From the NCBI RefSeq assembly GCF_001043175.1, contig NZ_CP011494.1, positions 2,604,001 to 2,668,000 on the forward strand: a stretch of 64,000 bases of DNA, written 5' to 3'. Of this stretch, positions 46,765 to 53,232 are shown piece by piece; the stretch's first letter is position 1; every line of letters starts with the position of its first letter. Position numbers and translations under genes: made by a program. The DNA comes from Marinobacter psychrophilus (GTDB taxonomy: Bacteria; Pseudomonadota; Gammaproteobacteria; Pseudomonadales; Oleiphilaceae). The notes under the pieces were generated by a model. That model was not told the DNA's origin. It did no database searches and saw only the letters and a list, made by a program, of their open reading frames with translations.

Positions 46765-47638
46765 TGCTGTCTCCCGTGTTCGCCGGTGCGCAGAAGCGGA
46801 CTTGATAACCGGTGTATTTGCGAATGTTGATCACGCCCGTGTCCAGAATCAGGTACTGGCCTTTTACGCCTTGCAGTACGCCAGACACGCGGGGTGTTTT
46901 GTCCAAATTGTGCGATGTTACTTTTTGTGGCCAAACGTCTACCGGGTAGCTTAAACCCAGAGACGGTTCCTGCACCGCGCGGATGCTGTCTGCGCCGTGT
47001 TCTGCGCGTAGGGCATCCAGTTCTTCGGCCACCAGGGCCAGCAGTTTGTCGCGTTCTTCAGCCAGGTTCAGCTCGGTGGTTTCGCCTTTCAACATGGTAC
47101 GCCAATTGGTGCGATCTGCCACGTGGGCTTTGCAGGCTACTTCCACGAAACCGGACAATTGACGGGTGGCAACACGCAACATGGGAATGGCGCCTACTGC
47201 GCCTTGGTCAATCCAGCGAGTAGGAACTTGGGTGCCGCGGGTGATACCGACTTTTAAACCCGACGAATTGGCCAGGTAAACTACATGCTCAACCATGCAG
47301 TTGGCCTGCCCCCACTCGGGTTCGCGGCAAGTGCCCAGGTGAAAATGACACTTTTCCGGGCTCATGATGCAGCTGTCACAAGATGCCAGTTTGCGCATGC
47401 AGGGAAAACAGAAACCTTGGCTGAAGCTTTTTTTGGTGACGCGGTCGCAGTTCATGCAGCGAATAATGCCGTTAAATTCAATACTAATGGGCTGGCCGAT
47501 CAGTTCGTTCAGTGCAACATGATTATCACCCAGGCGCAGTTCGTATTGCACCGGATTGCCGATAGAATGGCCGGCACTGGCGGGCATTTTGCGCAGGCGG
47601 CCACTAACGTCCACCGGATTTACGGGTGCCTGGTTCAA
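46757..47638 (-). CDS. DUF2797 protein with zinc-ribbon-like cysteines
   Basis: 293 residues, starting at TTG whose TTGA overlaps the stop of the YeaC-like gene by 4 bases. The DUF2797 pattern is seen: an N-terminal region with NPVQYELRLGDNHVALNELI, then CMNCDRVTKKSFSQGFCFPC and RKLASCDSCIMSPEKCHFHL with CREPEWGQANCMVEHVVYLA. These Cys/His clusters should bind metal. Then comes a GIY-YIG-like stretch, VYLANSSGLKVGITRGTQVP followed by TRWIDQGA. The function is unknown; nuclease-like folding is inferred only from the GIY-YIG resemblance. It is conserved beside pepN in relatives. Confidence 0.85.
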   Translation of the reverse strand: MNQAPVNPVDVSGRLRKMPASAGHSIGNPVQYELRLGDNHVALNELIGQPISIEFNGIIRCMNCDRVTKKSFSQGFCFPCMRKLASCDSCIMSPEKCHFHLGTCREPEWGQANCMVEHVVYLANSSGLKVGITRGTQVPTRWIDQGAVGAIPMLRVATRQLSGFVEVACKAHVADRTNWRTMLKGETTELNLAEERDKLLALVAEELDALRAEHGADSIRAVQEPSLGLSYPVDVWPQKVTSHNLDKTPRVSGVLQGVKGQYLILDTGVINIRKYTGYQVRFCAPANTGDSNA

Positions 47639-47979
47639 ACCTTTACCTCAGTGTATTGCTCGGAGCCGTCGTCATCGCTGTTGTCATTTAAAGAGCCATT
47701 TGCAGCGTCATTTTTTGCAGCGTTTTTGGCGACTTTTTTCTGCATCCGCACAGTGGGGTCGCAATCGGTACCGGCTTTGGCGCCGCGGTCTATGTAACCC
47801 GTGCGATCTTCTTCCGGCATGTTGTGGGTATTTTCGTAGTGAATCACCGCTTCCAGACTGATGGAGCGTTGCTCACGGCTAACTTTGCGGCCATCGGGCC
47901 ATTTACCCAGTTCAATAGACTGACGCAGGCTGCGGTAGACGTTCGGATCTAACCGTTCAATCAATTCTTCGTAAGTCAT
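47635..47979 (-). CDS. DUF1315 (YeaC-like) protein
   Basis: Small protein of about 114 residues. The ATG at 47979 is chosen because GGAGG lies at the right distance; the longer frame starts 7 codons earlier without support. Seen: MTYEELIERLDPNVYRSLRQ, SIELGKWPDGRKVSREQRSI and LEAVIHYENTHNMPEEDRTG with YIDRG, which is the whole conserved domain. The C-terminal tail is lysine-, asparagine- and aspartate-rich and looks disordered. Function unknown. It is the first gene of the yeaC-like/DUF2797/pepN run and lies back to back with the candidate small RNA promoter. Confidence 0.88.
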   Translation of the reverse strand: MTYEELIERLDPNVYRSLRQSIELGKWPDGRKVSREQRSISLEAVIHYENTHNMPEEDRTGYIDRGAKAGTDCDPTVRMQKKVAKNAAKNDAANGSLNDNSDDDGSEQYTEVKV

Positions 47980-48026: not shown

Positions 48027-48060
48027 TTGACATATGAGAACGATAACGATTATCATTGCT
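48027..48060 (+). promoter_or_regulatory. Plus-strand promoter overlapped by a Fur-like operator
   Basis: TTGACA (48027-48032) and TATCAT (48051-48056) are 18 bases apart, a good sigma-70 pair. The 19-mer GATAACGATTATCATTGCT at 48042-48060 matches the Fur consensus GATAATGATAATCATTATC at 14 of 19 positions and contains the perfect palindrome GATAA-CGA-TTATC. It covers the spacer and -10, so binding would block transcription. It may also act on the minus-strand promoter of the YeaC-like gene, 60 bases away. Confidence 0.7.
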
Positions 48061-48062
48061 TC

Positions 48063-48159
48063 ACCAAATGGCATCAAGCAACACGGTCGTTCATTTGGCG
48101 TCTCTCTCATCAGAGCTATTACGCTCTCTTAATGCCCCACCTTTTGGTGGGGTTTTTTT
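48063..48159 (+). ncRNA. Candidate Fur-regulated small RNA (about 95 nt)
   Basis: Between the back-to-back 5' end of the YeaC-like gene and the 3' end of the rhomboid gene, a promoter with a Fur-like operator is followed by about 72 bases without an ORF and then a strong intrinsic terminator. There is no ribosome site or start codon that opens a frame of note. The body includes a pyrimidine stretch, GGCGTCTCTCTCATCAGAGC, whose CUCUCUC part could pair with ribosome-binding sites. The layout (Fur box on the -10, about 100 nt, C/G hairpin, seven Ts) is that of RyhB/PrrF/NrrF-type RNAs, which repress iron-using proteins during iron starvation and need Hfq. I cannot claim sequence homology to those by eye. 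The 3' end overlaps the last two bases of the convergent rhomboid gene. Confidence 0.6.
48135..48159 (+). terminator. Intrinsic terminator of the candidate small RNA
   Basis: CCCCACC and GGTGGGG pair around a TTTT loop and are followed by seven Ts. The T-run is only on the plus strand, so this serves a rightward transcript although both neighbouring genes run leftward. That is the best argument for a plus-strand RNA here. Confidence 0.88.
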
Positions 48160-48838
48160 ATGCTTTTCGCCTGCCCGGCGGTGACAAAACTACAGCGACT
48201 ATTAAACCCGCCACAAAACCACCCAGGTGGGCTTCGTTGGCCATATTGCCCATGCCCAACATGTTGGGCAGCGGGGTAAAGCCCAGAACCATCCACGCCA
48301 GGGCGAAAGTGATCAGCGCCGGCGGAAACTGGAATCTGGGCAACCGCCGCTGACTTAGCCAGCAATAGCCCATAATGGCGTAGACCACGCCCGACAGGCC
48401 GCCAAACAGCGGGCCGGTAACCAGGTACTGCAGGCTATTGGACAGCAGGCTGGCCACCAACGCCAACACCAGCAGCCGGGTACGGCCGTCTATAAACTCG
48501 ATCTGACTGCCCAGAAACCACAACATCACCGAATTGAAGATGATGTGGGGCCAGCTAAAGTGCAGGAAGTCTGGCGTAATCAGGCGCCACACCTGCCCTT
48601 TCGACAGGGTATCCAGCAACGCATTCAGACGGTCAGCCAGGCTGAACCATTCGTACTGGCGCGGGTCGATGACCATTAAGCCGGCAGCCAGTTCGTTGCT
48701 GCTCATGGAGGTGAGCCACACCGTAACCACCGCAATCACAATGAGGCTGATTACCACCGGTGCATGACCGGGGGACGGTTGCCAGCGGCCGTTGACGATG
48801 GGAGAACGACGGCCGGGTTTCATCTGTTGATCGTCCAT
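48158..48838 (-). CDS. Rhomboid-family intramembrane serine protease
   Basis: 226 residues with about six membrane segments. Seen: the family L1 region ITPDFLHFSWPHIIFNSVML, the catalytic Ser in GGLSGVVYAIMGYCWLSQR (GxSG), and the catalytic His in NEAHLGGFVAGLIVAVVLSP (AHxxGxxxG). It cuts membrane proteins within the bilayer; its substrate is unknown. Its ATG overlaps the stop of the metallophosphoesterase gene (TAATG), so the two are translationally coupled. Basic C-terminus (PPGRRKA) faces the cytoplasm. Confidence 0.92.
   Translation of the reverse strand: MDDQQMKPGRRSPIVNGRWQPSPGHAPVVISLIVIAVVTVWLTSMSSNELAAGLMVIDPRQYEWFSLADRLNALLDTLSKGQVWRLITPDFLHFSWPHIIFNSVMLWFLGSQIEFIDGRTRLLVLALVASLLSNSLQYLVTGPLFGGLSGVVYAIMGYCWLSQRRLPRFQFPPALITFALAWMVLGFTPLPNMLGMGNMANEAHLGGFVAGLIVAVVLSPPGRRKA

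Positions 48839-50934: not shown

Positions 50935-53232
<2,298 letters not shown>

Follow-up and report, generated by a model that had tools for sequence, protein, structure and literature searches.

A predicted Fur-repressed small RNA of Marinobacter related to Pseudomonas PrrF, with sodB as its best-supported candidate target

Anatomy and conservation of the locus

The locus lies in Marinobacter psychrophilus (assembly GCF_001043175.1), in a window of 64,000 nt that spans positions 2,604,001-2,668,000 of NZ_CP011494.1 and on which all coordinates below are based. Both flanking genes read leftward: a DUF1315 (YeaC-like) gene identified by Pfam at 47635..47979, and a rhomboid protease gene at 48158..48838. 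The candidate small RNA (sRNA) gene reads rightward, on the opposite strand. Its predicted sigma-70 promoter (48027..48056) combines TTGACA (48027-48032), an 18-nt spacer and TATCAT (48051-48056), with matches at 11 of 12 positions; among 37 copies of the locus, TTGACA recurs in 34 and TTGACA-18-TATYAT in 32. The promoter alone is not significant, since a scan over 1.4 kb returned 2 promoter-like sites with 0.9 expected. As a preliminary description of this DNA had reported, a Fur-like box lies over this promoter, where it covers the spacer and the -10 element; the same overlap is found in PrrF. Against GATAATGATTATCATTATC, which we take to be the 19-position Fur-box consensus, the box at 48042-48060 matches 15 positions rather than the 14 first counted, a score reached at two places in the 64 kb (both strands); all 37 copies match at least 15 of the 19 positions. 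Read as the palindrome AACGATAACGATTATCATT at 48039..48057, the element is the best match in the whole genome (3,998,597 bases) to the extended palindrome AATGATAAYNATTATCATT, with 1 mismatch.

With up to 3 mismatches, AATGATAAYNATTATCATT gave 17 strand matches at 11 genomic positions, compared with 2 for the reversed pattern. Surroundings were examined for 8 of the other 10 positions: three are without a clear iron gene, and five adjoin genes that fit iron traffic, namely an ABC transporter with a solute-binding protein (two boxes; iron-type by eye) and, by Pfam, a ferritin-family gene reading as bfr, an ExbB-type gene and an imelysin gene. In this genome, a pair of Fur-like boxes with a spacing of 59 nt occupies the gap between two ABC transporter genes that diverge (L411:2200-2277).

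Judged from the -10 element, the RNA would start at about 48063 and have a body of about 97 nt (48063..48159, plus strand), which folds more stably than any of 200 shuffled sequences (z -3.8). For most species, the expected length is about 87 nt. The predicted fold begins with hairpin 1 (CCAAATG...CATTTGG, 48064..48098), whose loop GGTCGT occupies 48085..48090. It continues with a single-stranded core, TCTCTCTCATCAG (48101..48113), which alignment comparison identifies as the portion common to PrrF-like RNAs, and a small hairpin (AGAGC/GCTCT, 48112..48127). The body closes with an intrinsic terminator (48134..48159), in which a C4/G4 hairpin (48134-48153) is followed by seven Ts up to 48159; as first proposed, this element is usable, by sequence, in the rightward direction only. 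The terminator scan itself found 2 sites with 1.5 expected.

The model was built from 31 of the 37 copies (29 distinct), leaving out the window, its sibling L002, the near-duplicate L019 and the divergent copies L030, L038 and L039. Predicted pairs are kept in 97.4% of alignment cells, compared with 93.8% in shuffled controls, and double changes number 27 versus 8.7; the pairs with a double change (4 versus 3.3) and the pair types (14 versus 13.6) do not exceed the shuffles. Pairing is retained in 99.6% of the cells of alignment A2 for hairpin 1, which hardly varies, and in 90.5% of cells for the small hairpin. The double changes sit in the terminator, where three pairs show compensatory changes, and in one pair of the small hairpin; covariation support thus comes mainly from the terminator.

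The body also contains an ATG at +6 in 33 of 36 copies, with a frame that in most copies is stop-free to the end of the body, as a small protein-coding gene would require. Against such a gene, this ATG opens two different, unrelated frames through a 1-nt indel, stops interrupt its frame in G018, G020 and G036, three copies lack it, and no ribosome site was seen upstream of it in the window sequence. No conserved ORF was found in the body across the 36 copies, in keeping with the ORF-free stretch of about 95 nt originally described, and we consider a coding gene extremely improbable.

Of 37 Marinobacter genomes searched by blastn, that of M. psychrophilus included, 36 contain the locus, and the one without it is 62% complete; 21 genomes from other genera gave no match. 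This distribution marks a real gene. The 37 copies come from these 36 genomes, two of them from G020, and their alignment extends from the promoter and Fur box through the body to the terminator, so that the parts proposed as a unit are indeed kept together in Marinobacter. The two copies in G020 (L040:1954-2041 and L040:2187-2274) stand in tandem, 233 nt apart, reminiscent of prrF1/prrF2. A model built from relatives (R1), from which the window was excluded and which contains no promoter, finds the left-out window at 65.3 bits (48063-48159). R1 also scores at least 67 bits in all 69 loci beside yeaC (L043-L111), many of them from the same genomes as in the model; these loci are filed as Marinobacter except for L080 (a Halomonas MAG) and L108 (an Oleiphilaceae MAG). 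Another Oleiphilaceae MAG, L112, scores 37.9 bits; the locus L041 ends at a contig end. The weak R1 matches (54 at E 0.002 to 1) are nearly all the opposite strand of the same loci. In a set of 390 genomes of the order, R1 recovered every one of the 18 that belong to the window's family, 16 from the genus and 2 from sister genera. A natural (or assembly) deletion is seen in a close relative, Marinobacter gelidimuriae BF04_CF-4 (L042:2956-3020), where promoter, Fur box and the 5' half of the sRNA are gone and the yeaC start codon abuts a 3' remnant of 31.8 bits.

About 60 nt separate the Fur box from the yeaC start codon, and in all 69 loci the sRNA has remained next to yeaC. Both facts would suit an element that serves mainly as operator of the divergent YeaC-like gene, with the rightward RNA as a by-product, and the preliminary description had suggested that the operator might regulate this gene as well. 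Neither idea gains from the comparison: the scanner's leftward -35 sits in an insertion that only the window and its sibling L002 carry, so the leftward promoter is not conserved, whereas body, core and terminator of the RNA are kept base for base, and such RNAs occur also in genomes of families f36, f37 and f38 and in Pseudomonas-type genomes. A predominant operator role is very unlikely in our judgement. We instead regard the locus as a putative Fur-controlled sRNA gene of the RyhB/PrrF type, a reading that was proposed at the outset and is strongly supported by anatomy and conservation.

Complementarity to sodB and other candidate targets

The proposal that a CUCUCUC stretch could pair with ribosome sites is supported for sodB, jointly with the loop of hairpin 1; elsewhere such pairing is suggestive only. 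We used sodB of the Fe-SOD family, with the start fixed by the conserved MAFELP. In the 30 genus genomes, out of 31, that gave a match, the sodB leader reads GAGAGA...GGGAGAACGACCUCAUGGCAUUUGA or near it (GAGAGAAAACGGAGAACGACCUCAUGGCCUUUGA in M. psychrophilus) and is able to base-pair with three elements of the sRNA, namely UCUCUC, the loop GGUCGU and the 5' arm of hairpin 1. The loop is the complement of ACGACC ahead of the sodB start codon; across 35 genomes, ACGAYC and GAGAGA each occur in 34 sodB leaders and GGUYGU in 34 sRNAs. Duplex energies in 30 genomes yield a mean z of -3.93 against shuffled leaders and of -3.90 against shuffled sRNAs, the weakest duplex being that of G025 (-1.8, -2.0). 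Four neighbouring genes served as a control and gave mean z values of -0.66 to +0.39 over 29 to 67 loci (71 loci entered; 67, 66, 29 and 65 scored, rows without a locatable start or sRNA having been dropped). The complementarity across species is thus a direct result of the computation. In its own genome alone, the sodB duplex is not outstanding, as equally low values occur at 4 of the window's 152 start sites and, among relatives, at 16 of 335 ORF starts.

Outside the genus, sodB was scored in 14 of 15 outgroup genomes, G071 being set aside for its differing SOD starts. Values stay low in two sister genera (G222 -2.3, G389 -2.8) and in two of seven f38 genomes (G344 -2.4, G396 -1.9), the other f38 genomes being near zero or above. 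Under the same test, four Pseudomonas-type sodB leaders scored z -0.1 to +1.0, which shows the duplex test to be blunt; because sodB is placed within the PrrF regulon in the accessible part of one source (PMC13104616), a null result elsewhere does not exclude it as a target. On visual inspection, CCUGAUUAGGAGA of the Pseudomonas-type leader fits PrrF UCUCCUCAUCAGG, which is another site, and for this reason the pairing site on sodB seems to have moved between lineages. We regard sodB as the best-supported target, for which conserved complementarity predicts repression; the predicted contact of its leader with GGUCGU and UCUCUC is a new finding of this work.

The wider target search put forward in the preliminary description thus supported sodB (mean z -3.9, 30 genomes) and little else. 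Neither sdhC (mean z +0.4, 31 genomes) nor acnA (z +0.1, 9 genomes) gained support. The ferritin family, bfr included (29 genes in 21 genomes), is not supported either, with z from -2.4 to +1.1, no trend, and the seed present in bfr of G006 and G020 only. For acnB, found in 9 genomes and scored in 8 (G006 was dropped for an unclear start), z was a weak -0.9, driven by G000 (-3.4) and G004 (-2.3). A target role of leuC is suggestive only; its z was likewise -0.9 (9 genomes), and UGAGAGAG precedes the start codon in 8 of the 9. TGRTGRGRGRG, the exact complement of the core, shows no enrichment in the M. psychrophilus genome, with 11 matches versus 9 for the reversed pattern. The looser motif TGAGAGAGN{1,10}ATG gave 97 matches in 9 genomes versus 18 when reversed, an excess that proves no targets because the motif resembles a ribosome site. 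Eight of these 97 matches fall on the opposite strand of the sRNA gene itself, and the genes recurring in 40 hand-picked motif regions are not iron genes (lpxA-like, purA by Pfam, and an aminotransferase by eye).

Several leaders drew attention in their own right. Across 31 genomes, hardly any variation is seen in AGAGAGUGUGAGAGCGCUGUG, the sdhC leader (L242 near 1513; L212-L241). FadH contains an Fe-S cluster, and a FadH-like flavin oxidoreductase gene in the window (Pfam Oxidored_FMN, 50935-53028) has a leader, CCTGATGACGAGGAAGATGC, that pairs with the core at z -2.1 to -3.0; several of the 15 orthologues that were read carry GATGAGGAGA ahead of the start. A gene for a CDGSH iron-binding protein (L341:1004-1243 and L342) carries TTGAGAGAGAATAAT at the same place, among 9 genomes in M. 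psychrophilus and its sibling only.

The layout of the locus and the sodB complementarity suggest how the RNA may act. With iron present, Fur would cover the -10 element and the spacer, as the position of the box implies, and block transcription; when iron is scarce, the RNA would be made and would end at the intrinsic terminator. Its hairpin loop GGUCGU and the single-stranded UCUCUC could in that case bind the sodB mRNA around its translation start, the former at ACGACC between ribosome site and AUG, the latter at GAGAGA just upstream. Such pairing would lower the synthesis of iron superoxide dismutase and so spare iron. Transcription, Fur binding, Hfq use and repression are predictions of this scheme.

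Relationship to PrrF and other known RNAs

At first sight the RNA had been credited with no claimable similarity to known families, a statement that the models do not uphold. The Rfam model of PrrF (RF00444) aligns end to end at 48027-48161 with 32.7 bits (E 0.0044 in 2.5 kb searched), the lowest E-value among the Rfam families listed. In the whole genome, the best PrrF match falls at the locus (E 0.0017), and the next has E 4.2. RF00444 includes the Fur-promoter stretch, which raises the scores of any Fur-controlled RNA with a terminator, and the reverse search was for this reason run with the promoter-free R1. Next after its own family, in 390 genomes, R1 ranks G337, G282, G344 and G320 (E 4e-6 to 1e-4). 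G337, G282, G320 and the lower-ranked G180 are PrrF by Rfam (158-163 bits), and we therefore take their genome family, f20, to be Pseudomonas and its kin. Computed with models in both directions, the relationship between the Marinobacter RNA and PrrF is thus recovered each time. Among the 32 best-scoring R1 loci outside the family, 13 combine a Fur-like box with the core, and the other 19 resemble chance terminators; the overall R1 tally of 140 of the 390 genomes is not a count of homologues.

RNAs of intermediate character, which score 43-66 bits with Rfam PrrF, occur in G344 and other f38 genomes, in G136 (f37) and in G071 (f36). Like the Marinobacter RNA, they have a Fur-like box, the UCUC-UCAUCA core or near it, and a terminator; unlike it, they have retained AGCUAAUCACGG or near it and an additional stem-loop at the 5' side, and several are present in 2 to 5 tandem copies. 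Their shared stretch, CUCUCAUCAAGCUAAUCACGG or near it, consists of the Marinobacter core followed by the second half of PrrF. In one f38 genome, G290, five PrrF-like copies stand in tandem with a spacing of 277 to 302 nt (L167:550-1840).

An iron-starvation sRNA that arose independently and came to resemble PrrF only by convergence of its layout, with a Fur promoter, a short RNA and a terminator rich in GC, would be in keeping with a PrrF score far under the Rfam threshold and with the lift that RF00444 gives to such RNAs. It would also fit the finding of no common gene neighbourhood: in the loci of other groups (L113-L120), R1 has no match at E 1, and none near yeaC. Convergence sits poorly with the ranking of PrrF genes and G344 directly after R1's own family, and with the f38 and f37 RNAs that join the Marinobacter core UCUCUCAUCA to PrrF AGCUAAUCACGG; we judge it unlikely. 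Very probably, the locus encodes a Fur-repressed, trans-acting sRNA of about 97 nt, a homologue of Pseudomonas PrrF that has diverged strongly from it, with sodB as its probable target.

At E 0.001, the Rfam model of PrrF matches 58 of the 390 order genomes, which represent 31 of 142 genera, and none of 14 control genomes; its cut-off is passed in 17 genomes only, all of them f20. The M. psychrophilus genome is not among the 58, and L108 and L112, on the Marinobacter side, have no PrrF match at E 1. The difference between 58 and 17 suggests that the PrrF group extends well beyond the Rfam threshold. We lean, by a little, towards a broader history, in which Pseudomonas PrrF would be one branch of an old, order-wide iron-sparing RNA, and the Marinobacter branch would have lost the first stem-loop and half of the core while its sodB contact moved to the loop GGUCGU and UCUCUC. 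If true, an sRNA would have kept its key target, sodB, while the pairing site changed, and the sodB contact offers a testable case of this. Marinobacter, a common marine genus of habitats where iron is scarce, gains a concrete candidate for its iron-sparing RNA.

RyhB of enterobacteria, a Fur-repressed RNA that spares iron, is alike in principle. Of the three Rfam families proposed for comparison, PrrF came out as the best match, below threshold, and RyhB and NrrF are absent among the 7 Rfam matches up to E 10. The anti-hemB / Burkholderia RNA 7 family (RF02837) reaches 18.9 bits at 48101-48161 (E 0.28, threshold 49.5); its alignment covers mostly the terminator, and the match to the body is unconvincing. 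In the open-licence literature, we found no report of such an sRNA in Marinobacter and nothing on PrrF in Oceanospirillales; the available portion of a review touching on PrrF and Halomonas treats engineered use only. The accessible text of PMC4211561 describes the discovery of PrrF through a Fur box and a terminator, the lack of sequence homology between PrrF and RyhB, and PrrF siblings in nearly all Pseudomonas. ArrF of Azotobacter is given as a PrrF homologue in the corresponding part of PMC2851614.

The Marinobacter RNA resembles PrrF in its Fur box on the promoter, an ACCAA...UUGG hairpin with an AGGUCG-type loop, the core CUC-UCAUCAG, an intrinsic terminator and sodB as a predicted target. 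It differs in its predicted pairing site on sodB and in lacking both the first 5' stem-loop and UAAUCACGG. PrrF has two stem-loops before the core and Marinobacter one, and the Rfam alignment omits about 25 model positions at the missing stem-loop; of the PrrF core CUCCUCAUCAGGCUAAUCACGG, the first part is present as UCUCUCAUCAG and the second, UAAUCACGG, is absent. Because the match of 32.7 bits lies below the PrrF gathering score of 90 bits, the second stem-loop is missing and the M. psychrophilus genome holds one copy (its other PrrF matches have E >4), we call the RNA PrrF-like, not PrrF. Set beside the Pseudomonas RNAs and the intermediates, we read it as a strongly diverged PrrF homologue from which the 5' stem-loop has been lost along with a portion of the core.
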